From: Clostridia bacterium
GTDB taxonomy: Bacteria; Bacillota; Clostridia; Oscillospirales; Acutalibacteraceae
Assembly: GCA_022767925.1 (NCBI GenBank)
Contig: JALENG010000098.1
Span: 1 to 43,783, forward strand
Reading direction: 5' to 3'
Length of the DNA stretch: 43,783 nt
Under the pieces are notes generated by a model. The model saw nothing but the letters and a program-made list of their open reading frames with translations. It was not told the origin of the DNA and ran no database searches. Both the position numbers and the translations under genes were made by a program. Of the stretch, positions 14,269-43,724 are shown in pieces. Position 1 is the first letter of the stretch. Every line of letters begins with the position of its first letter.

Positions 14269-14592
14269 TTATCCCACCACCGTTTGAATCAGGGCCTGAA
14301 TGACGTCGTCTTTTCGGTCCAGACTCTTTTTCTGCATGTCGTTCTGCAATCGCTCAGTTTCAGCTTTTTCCCGGTAAAGGAGTTCCTTCGCCGCAAAATC
14401 AGCCTGCTGCTGTGCGGCTTTCTCTTCCTGAGCTGCCGCTAACCGGGCTTTTTCCAGTTGTTCCTTGGCGTCTTTTTTGGTCTTTTCCAGCAGCAGCTCA
14501 CCGCTCTCTTTCGCACGGAGCAGCTCCTTTTGGGCGTTTTCCTCCGCCTTTTTGACAGCCTCCAGGGCTTTTTCCGCCAATGAGATCACCAC
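14269..14592 (-). CDS. atpH: V-type ATP synthase subunit H/G (peripheral stalk coiled coil)
   Basis: 107 residues, almost wholly one charged coiled coil (Ala/Glu/Lys/Gln-rich), the expected partner helix of subunit E. The start is one of two adjacent GTG codons (14592 or 14589) after AAAGGAT; no ATG suits. It is the first gene of the operon. The sequence alone would only say coiled coil; the position before subunit I gives the name. Confidence 0.85.
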   Translation of the reverse strand: MVISLAEKALEAVKKAEENAQKELLRAKESGELLLEKTKKDAKEQLEKARLAAAQEEKAAQQQADFAAKELLYREKAETERLQNDMQKKSLDRKDDVIQALIQTVVG

Positions 14593-14968: not shown

Positions 14969-15270
14969 AACTTCATAGAAAAATGCGCCGAAAGGGACAG
15001 GAATGCAGATGCGTTTTCAAAAAGAGAGCTGCCGGTTGGTGGAAGGCAGCGGAACCGCTGCAGTCGATCACCCTGGAGCAGACCGCTGAACTCTGACAAG
15101 GTCAGAAAGTAAACCGGTCCGGAATTCCCCCGTTATCATGGGAGAGGCATTGCTGGATGCCTGTAAAGCGGCCGCCGAAGGCGGCAAAAAGAGTGGTACC
15201 GCGGAGTACACCTGACATGGAAAGCAGGCCTTCGTCTCTTGAAAACAGAGACGAAGGCTTTTGTTTCTTT
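14969..15270 (+). ncRNA. T-box riboswitch controlling ilvBNA, probably leucine-specific
   Basis: Stem I is recognised by GAGAG (15024-15028) and the GGTTGGTGGAA loop closed by GCTGCC/GGCAGC. The 3' side of stem I reads GCTGAACTCTGA; the likely specifier triplet is CTC (15091-15093, Leu), with ATC at 15066-15068 (Ile) as a less well placed alternative. The T-box proper, AGAGTGGTACCGCGG, lies at 15190-15204; its TGGT would pair with a tRNA ACCA end. A strong terminator follows at 15228-15265. Known mechanism: uncharged tRNA stabilises the antiterminator and turns on the operon. The stretch between the V-ATPase and ilv genes (14593-15321) is thus leader and promoter, not coding. Confidence 0.93.
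15228..15265 (+). terminator. T-box regulated terminator
   Basis: 12-bp arms GCCTTCGTCTCT (15228-15239) and its complement (15247-15258) with a TTTTGTTTCTTT tail. It is the off-state of the riboswitch, 57 bases before the ilvB start. Confidence 0.92.
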
Positions 15271-22838: not shown

Positions 22839-23756
22839 TTACTTTAAGAACCCGTTGACGATCTGCTCCTCGGCCTCCTGCTCCGTCAGGCCCAGGGTCA
22901 TCAGTTTGATCAGTTGGTCCCCGGCTATTTTGCCAATGGCCGCTTCGTGGATCAGGCTGGCCTCGGTGCAGTTGGCGGTGATTTCCGGGACTGAGCGGAC
23001 CGAAGCACTGTCCATAATAATGGCGTCGCACTCGCTGTGGCCGGCACAGCGGGCGTTCCCCACCAGACTGGCAAAGAATTCCTGATGGGAAGATTCTTTA
23101 GCCACCGAGCGAGATACTACGTTGGCACTGCAGTCATCGCCGTCCATGGCCACGGTAAAGCGGGTCTTGGCCGTCTGGTGTCCATGGGTCATCAGCTTTT
23201 CGTGGATGACCAGCGAAGCCCCCTCGGCCAGGTCGGCTTCGGTCACCCGGTCGGTGGAATCAATGCCCTTGATCTGGGTGGTCTGCATTTCAAAAGTGGA
23301 ACCCTCGCCCACGTGAATGACCGTGGTGGGATTCATCACCCGGCCGCCTTCGCCGTCGCCCTCGCCATAGTGCTTTTCCACATACACCACGCGGCTGTTT
23401 TTTCCGATGAAGAACGAGTGGATGCCGTCGTGCTTCGAGGTATCAACCCCGCAGTTGTGAATCCCGCACCCAGCGATAATCGTCACGTCGCAGTCGTCCC
23501 CGATATAAAAATCGTTGTACACCATCTCCTGCAGGCCGCTCTCACTGAGAATCACGGGGATGTGTACGCTCTCGTTTCGGGTGCCAGGCAGAATCCGGAT
23601 GTCGATCCCCGGCTTATCCTCTTTCCCGGTGATCTCGATATGCGCGGTGCTCTGGCGCCCGGCAGACTGACCGTTCAGGCGGATGTTGTATGCGCCCTCC
23701 GGCACATTGTGAAGGTCGGCCACCTCGGCCAACAGATTTTTTTCAATCGCATCCAT
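22839..23756 (-). CDS. SufB/SufD-like scaffold protein of a minimal Fe-S system
   Basis: 305 residues, much shorter than SufB (about 470) or SufD (about 420). It keeps the SufBD beta-helix core: QEMVYNDFYIGDDCDVTIIAGCG, then HIGEGSTF-like repeats and a C-terminal GHSECDAIIMDSASVRSVPEI followed by ASLIHEAAIGKI. These include the conserved Cys and His region used for cluster assembly. Paired with a SufC-like ATPase and with no SufD, SufS or SufU alongside, it fits the two-gene 'SMS' type of minimal SUF system described in anaerobes. It would build clusters in the cytoplasm. Ribosome site AAAGGATGG. Confidence 0.88.
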   Translation of the reverse strand: MDAIEKNLLAEVADLHNVPEGAYNIRLNGQSAGRQSTAHIEITGKEDKPGIDIRILPGTRNESVHIPVILSESGLQEMVYNDFYIGDDCDVTIIAGCGIHNCGVDTSKHDGIHSFFIGKNSRVVYVEKHYGEGDGEGGRVMNPTTVIHVGEGSTFEMQTTQIKGIDSTDRVTEADLAEGASLVIHEKLMTHGHQTAKTRFTVAMDGDDCSANVVSRSVAKESSHQEFFASLVGNARCAGHSECDAIIMDSASVRSVPEITANCTEASLIHEAAIGKIAGDQLIKLMTLGLTEQEAEEQIVNGFLK

Positions 23757-23773: not shown

Positions 23774-24502
23774 TTATGCGTGATTCAGCAGGGCGGCACA
23801 GGTGCCGGTGCCCTGCAGCAGCTCGGGCAGAATTTCGCGGCGACTGCCGGTGGCGGCCACCTGTCCCTCCCGCAGCACAATGATTTTATCCGCAATATCG
23901 AGAATGCGCTCCTGGTGGGTGATAATCAGAATCGAGCCGCCCACCTGCTTGTGCATTTTTTCAAAAACGCGGATCAGGCTCTGGAAGCTCCACAGGTCGA
24001 TTCCGGCCTCTGGCTCATCGAAAATGGAAAACTTGGTGCCGCGGGCCAGAATCATGGCGATTTCGATGCGCTTGCACTCACCGCCGGACAACGAGCTGTT
24101 CACCTCGCGGTTGATATAGTCCTTGGCGCACAGCCCTACTTCGGACAGGTATTCGCAGGCTTCACTCACGGTGATATCATGACCGGCGGCCAGCGTAATC
24201 AGGTCGCGCACGGTAATGCCCTTAAAGCGCACGGGCTGCTGAAAAGCAAAGCTGATTCCGTGCCTGGCCTTTTCCGTAATGGAGAGGTCGGTGATATCCT
24301 CGCCGTCCAGCAGGATGCGGCCGGAGGTCGGCTTTAAAATGCCGCTGATAATACGGGCCAGGGTGGATTTACCGCTGCCGTTGGGCCCGGTTACGGCGAC
24401 AAATCGGTCCTCAATCCGCAGGCTGACGTCCCGCAGGATTTCCTTGCCGTCGCTGCCGTTTTCACTGCCGGCATCAAACGAAATGTGCTGAAGTTCCAGC
24501 AT
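23774..24502 (-). CDS. SufC-like Fe-S assembly ATPase
   Basis: 242 residues, an ABC-class ATPase without membrane domains. Walker A GPNGSGKST (39-47), the Q-loop in FAFQQPVRFKG, the signature SLSGGECKRIEIA, Walker B FSIFDEPEAGID and an H-loop histidine in ITHQ are all visible. Start ATG at 24502 after ACAGGAGGAAC. It powers conformational change of the SufB-like scaffold encoded 17 bases downstream. The suf promoter lies at 24587-24615 and the leader begins with a hairpin. Confidence 0.9.
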   Translation of the reverse strand: MLELQHISFDAGSENGSDGKEILRDVSLRIEDRFVAVTGPNGSGKSTLARIISGILKPTSGRILLDGEDITDLSITEKARHGISFAFQQPVRFKGITVRDLITLAAGHDITVSEACEYLSEVGLCAKDYINREVNSSLSGGECKRIEIAMILARGTKFSIFDEPEAGIDLWSFQSLIRVFEKMHKQVGGSILIITHQERILDIADKIIVLREGQVAATGSRREILPELLQGTGTCAALLNHA

Positions 24503-24554: not shown

Positions 24555-24581
24555 GAAAAAACGGTGCCCCAAAGGGCACCG
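24555..24581 (-). terminator. Hairpin with U-run at the suf transcription start
   Basis: 8-bp arms (24562-24569 and 24574-24581) with a T-run on the minus strand. It is well formed as an intrinsic terminator for transcripts from pheA, yet begins right at the predicted suf start point (about 24580). It may both stop read-through from the aro operon and cap the 5' end of the suf mRNA. Confidence 0.65.
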
Positions 24582-24586
24582 TTTTG

Positions 24587-24615
24587 ATTATAGCGTGCGG
24601 GAAGATATTTGTAAA
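24587..24615 (-). promoter_or_regulatory. Promoter of the suf pair
   Basis: Read on the minus strand: TTTACA (24610-24615), 17-bp spacer, TATAAT (24587-24592). Confidence 0.8.
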
Positions 24616-24622
24616 GATAAAA

Positions 24623-24639
24623 TATACCAATTTGGTATA
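24623..24639. promoter_or_regulatory. Palindrome upstream of the suf promoter
   Basis: 8-bp arms TATACCAA (24623-24630) and TTGGTATA (24632-24639) around one T. It lies 7 bp upstream of the -35 box. A near copy occupies the hydG promoter spacer at 40415-40431. It is likely a regulator site; the protein is unknown. Confidence 0.55.
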
Positions 24640-39394: not shown

Positions 39395-40408
39395 ATGGAC
39401 CGTTTTTTTCAGCAGGTATACGGTGGCATCCTCGCCTTTGCGGTGGGGGATGCGCTGGGGGTACCGGTGGAGTTCAGCAGCCGGGAGGAGCGCATGCGCT
39501 CGCCGGTGACCGGGATGCGGGCGTACGGCACCCACCAGCAGCCGGCGGGCACCTGGTCCGATGACACCAGCATGACGCTCTGTGCGCTGGAGAGCCTGAG
39601 TCAGAGCGGGATTACCCGCGAAGCGGCCCCGAAAGACATGATGCGGCGGTTTTGCCGCTGGATGCGGGAGGGGTATTGGACGCCCTATGGCGAGGTGTTC
39701 GATATAGGCGGCACCACTTTTACGGCCCTGCAGCGGTATGAGTCCGGGGAAAGGGCCGAAAACTGCGGCGGAAAAGGGGAAAGGGATAACGGCAATGGTT
39801 CGCTGATGCGCATTCTGCCCGCGGCCCTCTATTTGTACCGCCGTGTGGGTCCGGATTTTGCCCGGCAGGGAGAGAGCTACGAGTGGATCCGCCGCCTTTC
39901 CTCCCTGACCCATGCCCACCCTATCAGTGTGATGAGCTGCGGCTTTTTCTGCGCCATTGCCGGTGAACTGCTCAGGGGCGGGGATATCCGGCAGGCAGTG
40001 GATGAGGGAGCGGAAAAGGCCCGGGCATTCTATGGGGGGAACCCGGAAACGGCCCCTTGGCTTCCTCTGTTTATCTGGCTGAACGGGGAAAATCTGCGGT
40101 CCCTTTCCCCGCAGGAGGTACGCGGCAGCGGTTATGTGCTGGATACCCTGAAGGCATCGCTGTGGAGCCTGGTGACCACCTCCACCCTGCCGGACTGCCT
40201 GCTGCGGGCAGTCAATCTGGGGGAGGACACGGATACGGTGGCGGCCGTGGCCGGTGGCCTAGCGGGCATTGTGTACGGAGAAGAGGGCGTTCCCGCTCCG
40301 TGGCGGAAGGTGCTGTGCAAACGGGAGGAGATCCGGCAATTGTGCGTGCGGTTCTGTGAGAACAATCCCGGTATAGGCCGGGCGCCGGAAGAGAAAAAAA
40401 GTTATTGA
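39395..40408 (+). CDS. ADP-ribosylglycohydrolase family protein (DraG-like)
   Basis: 337 residues, all-helical. The binuclear metal site is visible as WSDDTSMTLC (D56, D57, T58) near the start and GEDTDTVAAVAGGLAG near the end, with GGTTFTAL and RDNGNGSLMRILP between them. By family knowledge these enzymes remove ADP-ribose from proteins or small targets; DraG acts on nitrogenase reductase, but no nif genes are here, so the target is unknown. ATG at 39395 after AGGAGGAGAG; an earlier in-frame ATG at 39368 is possible. The hydG promoter overlaps its stop codon. Confidence 0.9.
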   Translation: MDRFFQQVYGGILAFAVGDALGVPVEFSSREERMRSPVTGMRAYGTHQQPAGTWSDDTSMTLCALESLSQSGITREAAPKDMMRRFCRWMREGYWTPYGEVFDIGGTTFTALQRYESGERAENCGGKGERDNGNGSLMRILPAALYLYRRVGPDFARQGESYEWIRRLSSLTHAHPISVMSCGFFCAIAGELLRGGDIRQAVDEGAEKARAFYGGNPETAPWLPLFIWLNGENLRSLSPQEVRGSGYVLDTLKASLWSLVTTSTLPDCLLRAVNLGEDTDTVAAVAGGLAGIVYGEEGVPAPWRKVLCKREEIRQLCVRFCENNPGIGRAPEEKKSY

Positions 40409-40433
40409 CAATTTTTTAGCAAATTGGTATAAC
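40405..40433 (+). promoter_or_regulatory. Promoter of the hydG leader
   Basis: TTGACA (40405-40410), 17-bp spacer, TATAAC (40428-40433). The spacer and -10 hold the suf-like element at 40415-40431. Transcription would start near 40440. Confidence 0.8.
40415..40431. promoter_or_regulatory. Suf-like palindromic element in the hydG promoter
   Basis: TTTAGCAA-A-TTGGTATA, matching 14 of 17 positions of the perfect palindrome TATACCAA-T-TTGGTATA at 24623-24639. It lies between the -35 and -10 boxes, where a bound protein would repress. Confidence 0.45.
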
Positions 40434-40439
40434 AGAATT

Positions 40440-40727
40440 GTGAGCGGAAGGTATCATCCGACTGCAAACCGGAAAACAAAATTCTGAGGGTAAAGAAGTT
40501 TCTGTGCCGCGAAGAGAAGAAGATGAAGAGAGCCAGGGCGGAGGGTTGCCGCCCCGGTTCAAAACAGCCTTTTGCTCTTTGGGCAAAAGGCTGTTTTATG
40601 TTCTGAGAAAAGATGCCGACAAGCGGCTGTGCCGGGTGCGGGCAATCGGGATCCGGCCGTAACCGGCTGCGGCAGCTGCCGCGGAAATGATACCGAAACC
40701 AAGTGACAGGAAAGGAAGGACACAATT
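40440..40727 (+). ncRNA. Structured leader of hydG with internal terminator (candidate attenuator or small RNA)
   Basis: About 290 bases with no convincing gene. A purine-rich stretch (40506-40530) is followed by a GC hairpin (40532-40558) and at once by an intrinsic terminator (40561-40600). After it comes a GC-rich structured segment with the 14-base palindrome GCGGCAGCTGCCGC (40669-40682), then the hydG ribosome site. It could be a riboswitch, a protein-controlled attenuator, or a roughly 160-base small RNA with hydG read-through. No known riboswitch class is recognised. Confidence 0.45.
40561..40600 (+). terminator. Intrinsic terminator inside the hydG leader
   Basis: Perfect 15-bp stem (40561-40575 with 40583-40597), loop of 7, with a TTTT tail. 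Located 130 bases before hydG. Confidence 0.8.
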
Positions 40728-42170
40728 ATGGCATACAATCCCAAATCCATGTGCGCCGATGAATTTATCGACGACGGAGAAATTCAGGAGACCCTGCGCT
40801 ATGCGGAGGAGAACAAGAACAATGTGGCGCTGATCGACGCTATTCTGGAGAAAGCCCGCCCCCGTGTGACGGAGAAGGGGACAGTGTGCGCCGGGCTGAC
40901 CCATCGGGAGGCCTCGGTGCTGCTCAGTTGTGAAATCCCCGAGAAGGTGCAGGAGATGTACCGGCTGGCCGAGGAGATCAAAAAGGCGTTTTACGGCAAC
41001 CGAATTGTGATTTTTGCTCCCCTGTATCTGTCCAACTACTGCGTGAACGGCTGCGTATACTGCCCCTATCACAAGAAGAATACCCATATCCCCCGAAAAA
41101 AACTGACCCAGCAGGAGGTCGAGCAGGAAGTGATCGCCCTGCAGGATATGGGACATAAGCGCCTGGCGATCGAGGCCGGTGAGGACCCGGTGATGAACCC
41201 CATCGACTATATCCTCGAGTGCATCCACACCATCTATTCCGTCAAGCACAAAAACGGCGCCATCCGCCGGGTGAACGTGAATATCGCGGCCACCACGGTG
41301 GAGAATTACCGCCGGCTGAAAGAGGCGGGAATCGGCACCTACGTTCTGTTCCAGGAGACATATCACAAAGAGAGCTATCTGAAGCTGCATCCCACGGGTC
41401 CCAAGCATGACTATAACTATCACACTGAGGCCATGGACCGCGCCATGCAGGGCGGCATTGACGATGTGGGGCTGGGGGTCCTGTTTGGTCTGGAACTGTA
41501 TAAATACGAGTTCGCCGGGCTTTTGATGCACGCTGAGCATCTGGAGGCCGCTTTCGGCGTGGGGCCCCATACGATCAGCGTCCCGCGTATTAAGCGCGCG
41601 GATGATATTGATCCCAATGTCTTTGACAACGGCATCAACGACGAGATTTTTGCCAAAATCTGCGCGCTGATCCGTATCGCCGTGCCCTACACGGGTATGA
41701 TTATTTCCACCCGTGAGAGCCAGCAGGTGCGCGAAAAGGTCATCCGCCTGGGTGTATCCCAGATCAGCGGTGCTTCCCGCACCTCGGTGGGCGGATATAC
41801 GGAGAAAGAGCGCCCCACCGATACTGAGCAGTTCGACGTATCCGACCAGCGCACGCTGGATGAGGTGGTGCGCTGGTTGATGGAGATGGGGTATATCCCC
41901 TCGTTCTGCACGGCCTGTTACCGCGAGGGCCGCACCGGCGACCGGTTTATGGCCCTGTGCAAAACCGGCCAGATTCAAAACTGCTGCCATCCCAACGCAC
42001 TGATGACCCTGCAGGAGTTCCTGATGGATTATGCCGGGGAGGAAACCCGCCGGATCGGCGAGGAATTGATCCGGGCCGAGCTGCAGAACATCCCGCGGGA
42101 CAAGGTGCGCGAGGTGTGCCGCGACAATCTGGAAAAAATCCGGCAAGGTCTGCGGGATTTCCGTTTTTAA
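40728..42170 (+). CDS. hydG: [FeFe]-hydrogenase H-cluster maturase HydG
   Basis: 480 residues, radical-SAM tyrosine lyase. The SAM-cluster cysteines are C105, C109 and C112 (CVNGCVYC). The C-terminal auxiliary-cluster cysteines are C394, C397 and C420 (CTAC, then NCCHPNA), the CX2CX22C pattern specific to HydG rather than ThiH. It cleaves tyrosine to make the CO and CN- ligands of the H-cluster. AGGAAAGGAAGG precedes the ATG. It lies in an operon with hydF and a TM1266-type gene; hydE and the hydrogenase itself are not in this window. Confidence 0.97.
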   Translation: MAYNPKSMCADEFIDDGEIQETLRYAEENKNNVALIDAILEKARPRVTEKGTVCAGLTHREASVLLSCEIPEKVQEMYRLAEEIKKAFYGNRIVIFAPLYLSNYCVNGCVYCPYHKKNTHIPRKKLTQQEVEQEVIALQDMGHKRLAIEAGEDPVMNPIDYILECIHTIYSVKHKNGAIRRVNVNIAATTVENYRRLKEAGIGTYVLFQETYHKESYLKLHPTGPKHDYNYHTEAMDRAMQGGIDDVGLGVLFGLELYKYEFAGLLMHAEHLEAAFGVGPHTISVPRIKRADDIDPNVFDNGINDEIFAKICALIRIAVPYTGMIISTRESQQVREKVIRLGVSQISGASRTSVGGYTEKERPTDTEQFDVSDQRTLDEVVRWLMEMGYIPSFCTACYREGRTGDRFMALCKTGQIQNCCHPNALMTLQEFLMDYAGEETRRIGEELIRAELQNIPRDKVREVCRDNLEKIRQGLRDFRF

Positions 42171-42197: not shown

Positions 42198-43403
42198 ATG
42201 AGCCTGCAGGATACACCGTCGGGCGAGCGGATCCATATCGCCTTTTTTGGAAAAAGAAATGCGGGAAAATCCAGCCTGGTCAATGCTGTGACCGGGCAGG
42301 AGCTGTCGGTGGTATCCGAGGTGCGGGGCACCACCACCGACCCGGTGCAGAAGTCAATGGAGCTGCTGCCCCTGGGGCCGGTGGTGATCATCGACACGCC
42401 CGGCTTTGACGATGAGGGGGACCTGGGGGCCCTGCGGGTCAAAAAGGCCCGGGAGGTGCTGCGCCGTACCGATCTGGCTGTTCTGGTCACCGAGGGGCCG
42501 TTTCACGGTTTTGACCCTTGCGAAGAGGAACTTTTGGAGAGCTTCCGGCGGCAGGAGATTCCGTATTTGCTGGTGTGCAGCAAGTGTGACCGCCTGGATG
42601 AGGCCCCACAGCGCGGGGACATGCTTCCTGTCAGCGCTCACACCGGGGAGGGAATCCGGGAACTGAAGGAGCGGATGGGCCGCCTGCTGAAGGGATCGGA
42701 GGAAAAGGGGATTCTCGACGGAATGATTGCCCCCGGCGATACGGTGGTGTTGGTCACCCCCATTGACTCGGCGGCGCCCAAAGGGCGCCTGATCCTGCCT
42801 CAACAGCAGGTTCTGCGCGAGGTGCTGGATAAAGGGGCGATCGCCGTGGTGGCGACGGAAAAAGAACTGCCCCGGGCGCTGGATGCCCTGCGGCAGGCGC
42901 CGCAGCTGGTGATTACGGACAGCCAGGCCTTCGGCCCTGTCTCGCGCATCGTGCCGCAGCAGGTACCGCTTACCTCGTTTTCTATTCTGATGGCCCGCTA
43001 TAAGGGCTTTTTGCAGACGGCGGTGCACGGCGTGCAGGCAATCGCCCAATTACAGCCGGGGGACCGGGTACTGATCGCGGAGGGCTGCACCCATCACCGG
43101 CAGTGTGAGGATATCGGCACCGTAAAACTGCCAGCCTGGCTGCAGAAGAGCTGTGGGGGAGAACTCTCGTTCACGTTTTCGTCGGGACTGGGCTTCCCCG
43201 AGGATCTGTCCGGCTTTTCGCTGATCCTCCACTGCGGGGGATGCATGCTGCGGGAAAAGGAGATCCGATTCCGTATGCGCAGTGCTCGGGAAGCGGGGAT
43301 CCCCTTTACCAATTACGGGACGGCAATCGCATGGATGAAAGGAATTCTGCCCCGCAGTCTGCGCCCGGTTCCCGGTGCCGCTGCGTGGCTGGAAAAAGAA
43401 TAA
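42198..43403 (+). CDS. hydF: [FeFe]-hydrogenase maturation GTPase HydF
   Basis: 401 residues. The GTPase domain (about 1-170) has the P-loop FGKRNAGKSS, the switch RGTTTDPV, DTPGFDDEG and SKCD in place of NKxD. A dimerisation domain and a cluster domain follow; the cluster ligands appear as C297-x-H299 and H345-C346-x2-C349. It is the scaffold on which the diiron subcluster is held before transfer to the hydrogenase. ATG at 42198, 27 bases after hydG, with GAGAGGAGAAACGAGG upstream. Confidence 0.96.
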   Translation: MSLQDTPSGERIHIAFFGKRNAGKSSLVNAVTGQELSVVSEVRGTTTDPVQKSMELLPLGPVVIIDTPGFDDEGDLGALRVKKAREVLRRTDLAVLVTEGPFHGFDPCEEELLESFRRQEIPYLLVCSKCDRLDEAPQRGDMLPVSAHTGEGIRELKERMGRLLKGSEEKGILDGMIAPGDTVVLVTPIDSAAPKGRLILPQQQVLREVLDKGAIAVVATEKELPRALDALRQAPQLVITDSQAFGPVSRIVPQQVPLTSFSILMARYKGFLQTAVHGVQAIAQLQPGDRVLIAEGCTHHRQCEDIGTVKLPAWLQKSCGGELSFTFSSGLGFPEDLSGFSLILHCGGCMLREKEIRFRMRSAREAGIPFTNYGTAIAWMKGILPRSLRPVPGAAAWLEKE

Positions 43404-43420: not shown

Positions 43421-43663
43421 ATGGAAACACGGGTGGCTTTGCTGGCTATTTTGGTAAAGGATGCATCCCATGTGGATACACTCAATCAGCTTTTGCATGA
43501 ATACGGCCCGTTTATCATCGGGCGCATGGGGATCCCGTACCGGGAAAAGGGGATCCACATTATCAGTATTGCGATGGATGCCCCACTGGACTGCATCAAT
43601 GCCCTGGCGGGGAAAATCGGCCGGATTCCCGGGATCAGCAGCAAGATCGTTTTTGCCAACTGA
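43421..43663 (+). CDS. TM1266-type iron-only hydrogenase system regulator
   Basis: 80 residues, ACT-like or ferredoxin-like alpha/beta fold. TRVALLAILVKDASHVDTLNQ, GPFIIGRMGIPYREKGIHII and DCINALAGKIGRIPG match the family of short proteins found with hydE/hydF/hydG and called 'iron-only hydrogenase system regulator'. Its effector and mode of action are not known. ATG after AAAGGGAGGAGAG, 17 bases after hydF, so same operon. Confidence 0.88.
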   Translation: METRVALLAILVKDASHVDTLNQLLHEYGPFIIGRMGIPYREKGIHIISIAMDAPLDCINALAGKIGRIPGISSKIVFAN

Positions 43664-43676
43664 AAAGACACAAAGA

Positions 43677-43713
43677 AACAGGCGGGAAAGCATTTTGTGC
43701 TTTCCCGCCTGTT
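43677..43713. terminator. Bidirectional terminator after the hyd operon
   Basis: Perfect 16-bp stem (43677-43692 with 43698-43713), 5-base loop, with an A-rich left flank; it ends the hyd operon and could also serve the convergent gene at 43725. Confidence 0.8.
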
Positions 43714-43724
43714 GGTATAAGCGA

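Follow-up and report, generated by a model that had tools for sequence, protein, structure and literature searches.

In the window, the whole 43,783-nucleotide stretch of DNA that was analysed (43.8 kb), a perfect 17-bp palindrome stands at the promoter of the suf genes and a similar sequence at the promoter of hydG. On the reading that we consider likely as a whole, the suf palindrome would be an Fe-S operator read by an Rrf2-type regulator, the hydG match would be mainly promoter sequence, and the hyd genes would be controlled by the leader RNA.

The suf palindrome was found exactly as the initial annotation had described it, symmetrical around its central base (TATACCAATTTGGTATA). A TTTACA-N17-TATAAT promoter lies 7 bp downstream of it on the minus strand, and the centre of the operator is located at about −51 relative to the inferred transcription start. 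The features of this region are as follows.

24623–24639, unstranded: putative suf operator, perfect palindrome, kept in relatives
24587–24615, minus strand: suf promoter (−35 TTTACA 24615–24610; −10 TATAAT 24592–24587)
24556–24580, minus strand: terminator-like hairpin right behind the suf −10 (stem −17.4 kcal/mol, then a T run)
23774–24502, minus strand: sufC, SmsC-type ABC ATPase, first gene of the suf pair (ABC_tran match)
22839–23756, minus strand: sufB/D-like core protein, SmsB-type, second gene of the pair (SUFBD_core match)

The same-genus genome G001 has a suf site at the same position (CATACCAAATTAGTAGA, 15.95 bits), and suf sites were also found in five further genera, which indicates that the suf copy is conserved at orthologous promoters. 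The palindrome is very probably a genuine operator, a conserved DNA switch of Fe-S genes across this Clostridia family. The hairpin at 24556–24580 begins roughly where the suf transcript should start (about +1), and the same-genus relative has a terminator on the upstream side of the suf operator instead. It is possible that this hairpin is an attenuation element, or simply the pheA terminator.

Within the window, only the suf and hydG copies matched TATACCAANTTGGTATA with up to three mismatches. By chance 0.02 such matches would be expected, and two together were seen in no shuffle. The half-site alone is also present at 43712–43719, as had been reported. A scan of the whole 2.1-Mb genome for the element with up to three mismatches, which had been proposed as a check, did not single it out: the degenerate consensus gave 10 matches compared with 9 for the reversed control. 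Weak matches alone thus mean little in this genome, and the list of its matches with two or three mismatches was dropped as a regulon because it is at chance level. At 15 bits or more, four sites were detected, whereas column-permuted matrices predict about 0.5; the count covers 1.02 Mb of the 2.10-Mb genome, a non-random sample in which the contigs with those sites were included on purpose. They are located at suf, at hydG, between esterase and flavoprotein-rubredoxin genes, and at a plsY-like gene. The C79 site (L002 1501–1517 in G000, 17.4 bits) has a carboxylesterase on one side and a flavin reductase-rubredoxin fusion on the other. It is kept in the same-genus genome in an asymmetrical form (TATAGCAACTTTGTATG, 9.8 bits), and it may correspond to the divergent esterase promoter.

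The motif TATACYAAnTTRGTATA is found repeatedly within the family in front of sufC, iscS, and fprA, where the matches have at most one mismatch. In 300 family genomes, its CC form with at most one mismatch was in clear excess over the reversed control. The TT form as a whole showed a small excess over its control and, unlike the control, was concentrated in genomes that carry the rpoD-linked Rrf2 gene (class B) described below. The sites were found at suf (L009, L010, L260, L262, L263, L265, L266), at iscS/nifS (L016, L021, L023, L024, L031, L032, L258, L259, L268, L272, L273, L276), and at genes of fprA flavodiiron proteins (L011, L013), the functions of neighbours being read from the sequence by eye unless a family search is cited. 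An NuoE/HndA-like gene divergent from iscS (L032) is possibly another member of the regulon. The idea that the suf element belongs to an Fe-S regulon was therefore borne out in related genomes by its presence at suf, iscS, and fprA. When GTDB genomes were scanned with a broad pattern, few of the matches in 31 Firmicutes loci stood at suf, iscS, cooS-like, or cydA-like genes. Searching papers for the literal palindrome returned nothing relevant. A CODH (cooS)-like gene of two Clostridia (L294 572–588 and L280 2012–2028) is preceded by two TATACTAAATTAGTATA-type palindromes with their centres 31 bp apart.

The position of the motif relative to the core promoter differs between iscS and suf. At least seven genomes have the palindrome of the iscS promoter between TTGAAA and TATATT/TATTAT-like hexamers, where it runs into the −10. 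The suf copies are placed upstream of the −35, and the distance from the start of the motif to the start of the −10 is 47 bp (G000, G001), 56 bp (G127, G218), or 68 bp (G101, G271), in steps of about one helical turn. In the present genome, iscS is located behind the class A Rrf2 gene and the palindrome is absent there. The initial annotation had assigned a copy in the spacer to a repressor and a copy upstream of the −35 to an activator, and the iscS and suf promoters of the family match this scheme. The geometry agrees with iscS being repressed and suf being activated, with the sign of regulation predicted from the position of the sites. We propose that the state of the regulator would change as the supply of Fe-S clusters falls. 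In relatives, the site in the spacer of the iscS promoter would block RNA polymerase, and iscS would then be relieved of repression. The suf genes, whose site is at least one helical turn upstream of the −35, would probably be activated.

Two Rrf2 genes are present in this genome. One (class A) is IscR-like and stands beside iscS, and the other (class B) follows dnaG-rpoD; the class B gene was found directly downstream of rpoD in 30 of 32 loci. The class B protein (G000 C114) scored 88.5 bits against PF02082 (cut-off 30), which assigns it to the Rrf2 family, and 92.4 bits against TIGR00738 of the Rrf2 superfamily (cut-off 73.3). Three cysteines (C90, C97, C102) are invariant in 14 aligned class B sequences, and this triad could hold an Fe-S cluster. 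Class B proteins with a strong score were detected in 62 of 200 family genomes. In the association counts, which include related and non-independent genomes, motif matches were present in 28 of the 62 genomes with class B and in 14 of the 138 without it (p 7e-8), whereas reversed controls were not tied to class B; with an independent matrix, for which iscS, fprA, and long-suf sites but no short-suf sites served as training set, short-suf promoters reached 14 bits or more in 8 of 20 cases with class B and in 0 of 69 without it (p 2e-6), or in 6 of 14 and 0 of 49 when counted at the genus level (p 4e-5). The remaining 12 of the 20 suf promoters in class B genomes have no clear site. In G274, G188, and G051, class B is the sole Rrf2 gene above the cut-off.

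The textbook regulator of suf and isc is IscR, and the IscR-like class A gene stands beside iscS in this genome, which makes the class A protein another candidate to read the suf palindrome. Class A, however, has no gene above the cut-off in the motif-bearing genomes G274, G188, G051, and G078. Its iscR promoters, which are expected to be autoregulated, do not contain the motif either; several of them, including that of this genome, carry CCTAT-N6-ATAGG. We therefore disfavour the class A protein as the reader and regard such a role as improbable. In L137 (G000 C142), CCTAT-N6-ATAGG is located about 35 bp upstream of iscR; it is common to L144 and similar in other genomes, and it is probably the operator of the class A protein itself.

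It is also conceivable that a protein of another family, such as an Xre- or Fur-type regulator, reads the palindrome and that the association with Rrf2 is a phylogenetic coincidence. A 7-1-7 or 8-1-8 palindrome suits other families too, and TATCCCAAnTTGGTATA and similar variants lie upstream of small Xre-type regulators in eight family loci (L022, L026, L029, L030, L034–L037). Most of these Xre-linked copies, however, differ in one half and all of them differ in gene context, and the suf, iscS, and fprA sites track the rpoD-linked Rrf2 gene at both the species and the genus level. We thus consider another family quite unlikely as the reader, and the TATCCCAAnTTGGTATA-type variant is probably a different, autoregulated operator. 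The association across genomes, the independent matrix, the genomes with class B only, and the class A promoters together make class B the best inference for the binder. The rpoD-linked Rrf2 protein most probably reads the suf palindrome, and the Rrf2-type regulator suggested earlier has its best candidate in this predicted binder.

IscR of Escherichia coli, a member of the Rrf2 family, represses isc and activates suf. The class B system resembles it in the Rrf2 fold, the three cysteines, the Fe-S assembly targets, the repressor-like site at iscS, and the upstream site at suf. It differs in that class B is of a different NCBIfam subfamily, scoring 36–57 bits against the IscR models (TIGR02010 / PRK10857) with cut-offs of 207–275. 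Moreover, the gene does not lie in an isc operon with an autoregulatory site but follows dnaG-rpoD and has no motif upstream, and one short 17-bp palindrome takes the place of two site types. After the superfamily, the closest equivalog model is TIGR02944, the Rrf2 regulator of the SUF system, with 79.3 and 71.1 bits, below the cut-off of 110.65; all named equivalogs are well below their cut-offs, and, unlike the TIGR02944 regulator, class B is encoded outside the suf operon. For clostridial IscR/CymR, a conserved promoter element has been noted at CAC1675 (PMC3828012). These, too, are clostridial Rrf2 proteins whose operators are related, although the class A iscR promoters here carry CCTAT-N6-ATAGG-like repeats and not the palindrome motif.

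The second copy of the element is located in the promoter of the hydG operon, which comprises the following features.

40405–40433, plus strand: hydG promoter (TTGACA 40405–40410, 17-bp spacer, TATAAC 40428–40433, TG extension)
40415–40431, plus strand: reported hydG copy TTTAGCAAATTGGTATA (15.35 bits; not conserved)
40728–42170, plus strand: hydG (TIGR03955, 920 bits)
42198–43403, plus strand: hydF (TIGR03918)
43421–43663, plus strand: TM1266-family putative hydrogenase-system regulator (TIGR03959, 99.8 bits, cut-off 60.8)

TM1266-family proteins are named as hydrogenase regulators but, to our knowledge, are untested in this role. The hydG copy is identical to the suf palindrome at 14 of 17 positions, as had been stated, and has two mismatches to TATACCAANTTGGTATA. 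It lies within TTGACA-N17-TATAAC, so that the extended −10 (TGGTATAAC) coincides with its right half (TTGGTATA); an overlap of the half-site with the −10 had already been noticed. Only the left half of the hydG copy therefore needs explaining.

In G001, hydE stands ahead of hydG. Promoter and leader align between the two genomes, which makes the promoter in front of hydE in G001 orthologous to the present hydG promoter; in the present genome, hydE is on another contig than hydG. The orthologous promoter keeps TTGACA and TGGTATAA, and the same slot contains AGAAACAAGCTGGTATA, with five mismatches and the left half lost. This loss argues against joint control, in which one Fe-S or redox regulator would bind both copies, activate suf, and repress hydG-hydF-TM1266 from the spacer. 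In favour of joint control, the score of the hydG copy is near that of the suf site in the same genus, and its spacer geometry resembles that of iscS. In addition, among 25 non-suf TTGGTATA half-sites in the 1.02-Mb sample, hydG alone has such a left half, with 6 of 8 opposite-half matches compared with 4 for the next best. A left half of this quality is nevertheless expected by chance in about 0.3–2.7% of such promoters. Among 27 other promoter regions of hyd genes from genomes that have the regulator, 26 yielded nothing that reached 14 bits. The exception is the distant genome G136, where a strong independent site of 22.9 bits is located at the promoter of a TM1266-hydG operon; this site speaks for joint control, as does a weak one of 10.9 bits in the spacer of the hydE promoter in G013. 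Joint control is, on balance, unlikely, and a functional operator at hydG is doubtful. The initial annotation had proposed a single Fe-S or redox-sensing regulator for both operons and a comparison of both promoters across relatives. The suf part of this proposal stands, with the element kept at suf as part of an Fe-S regulon, whereas conserved joint control of suf and hydG is not supported, the element being lost at the orthologous hydG promoter and below 14 bits in 26 of the 27 other hyd regions. The hydG look-alike appears to be mostly core promoter, namely that of sigma-A with its extended −10, together with a lineage-specific spacer.

The operator sequence of the redox regulator Rex, TTGTGA-N4-TTCACAA, differs from the palindrome. 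In Clostridium thermocellum, a predicted Rex site has been assigned to hydG and a neighbouring hydrogenase-system regulator gene (PMC8457756).

We propose that control of the hyd genes would lie in the RNA behind the promoter, where a leader with two hairpins is followed by a terminator-like stem.

40436–40602, plus strand: structured hydG leader RNA (folding z −4.2; alignment with relative)
40444–40465, plus strand: leader hairpin A (GCGG-AA-GG-loop-CC-GA-CTGC; the relative has a single compensatory change)
40481–40517, plus strand: conserved hyd hairpin B (CUGA-stem-AAAG / CUGN-stem-NAAG; recurrence, covariation)
40561–40597, plus strand: strong terminator-like hairpin with a U run, between promoter and hydG

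The hydG leader of this genome and the hydE leader of G001 have the two hairpins in common, with compensatory changes, and both end in a strong stem and a U run before the gene. A model of both hairpins (R1) detected one more complete leader, the third, in front of the G120 hydE-hydG operon with 31 bits and an E-value of 4e-5, which is rough, as are those of the second model (R2) used below, both models being home-made. The order of promoter, structured leader, terminator-like stem, and gene (hydG here, hydE in the relative) is that of leaders controlled by riboswitches or proteins. Unlike known riboswitch leaders, the hyd leaders matched no Rfam family at the gathering score, and weaker matches were only at chance level. 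A PyrR-type leader at hydG was rejected as a generic terminator match (30.5 bits compared with a gathering score of 54). The window also contains a T-box leader at 14979–15242 (Rfam RF00230, 99 bits). No description of the hyd hairpin element was found in a literature search, and the hydG leader is a candidate for an apparently undescribed cis-regulatory RNA of [FeFe]-hydrogenase maturation. Its second hairpin would be a probable attenuator or translation switch acting via a ligand or an RNA-binding protein.

Hairpin B was surveyed with a fixed descriptor (CUGA-N4-AARG / YUGN-N4-NAAG), which gave 14 sense and 0 antisense matches in 49 hyd loci and 1 match in 1.44 Mb of strands of the own genome. 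The hairpin precedes hydG, hydE, and TM1266-family genes (40481–40517, L164, L170, L172, L177, L190, L402, L405, L410, L413) and is absent or too weak for detection in most of the 49 loci. Copies stand 8–14 nt before hydG start codons, or at a greater distance in front of hydE and TM1266-family genes. Seven copies were used to build R2, which matched eleven more places at 16.7 bits or more; since the best background match in the own genome reached 19.3 bits, the three weakest hyd matches (L414, L186, L165) are not above background alone. The R2 match at 14368–14401 was attributed to chance because of its low score and the lack of a hyd gene.

In an alignment of 18 copies (A6), which was fitted to the model and thus favours pairing, 97% of the cells were paired, five of the six pairs (19 cells) had changes on both sides with pairing kept, and covariation was 0.58 compared with at most 0.12 for slid partners, a score reached by 0 of 500 shuffles. 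When the seven copies were aligned without structure (A5), covariation was 0.35 compared with at most 0.18 for slid partners, and 3 of 500 shuffles reached it. Judged from these alignments, hairpin B behaves as a structured RNA whose pairing is kept through two-sided changes. Many copies lie just before the hydG start codon, where GAAAGGA is expected, and hairpin B might for this reason be a non-regulatory by-product of the ribosome-binding-site sequence and local constraint. Such an origin is improbable given the two-sided changes in five of six stem pairs, the copies far from start codons before hydE and TM1266 genes with terminators, and the absence of any copy from the antisense strand.

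Our judgement is evenly balanced on a wider proposal, namely that an undescribed class of RNA, whose core hairpin has two CUGA/NAAG-type internal loops framing a variable 4-bp stem, controls hydE, hydG, and TM1266-family genes in this Clostridia family, alongside a separate Fe-S regulon of the rpoD-linked Rrf2 protein and its palindrome. Either an RNA-binding protein or a small molecule linked to the supply of H-cluster or Fe-S would recognise the RNA; the TM1266-family protein, encoded by the last gene of the hydG operon, is one candidate partner. The regulation of Fe-S assembly in Clostridia with a minimal sufC-sufB pair and that of [FeFe]-hydrogenase maturation are both little charted. Since the regulator gene, the operator, and the targets are named, the Fe-S regulon is directly testable, and since the hyd hairpin is compact, covarying, and tied to one pathway, a direct search for its ligand or protein partner is possible.
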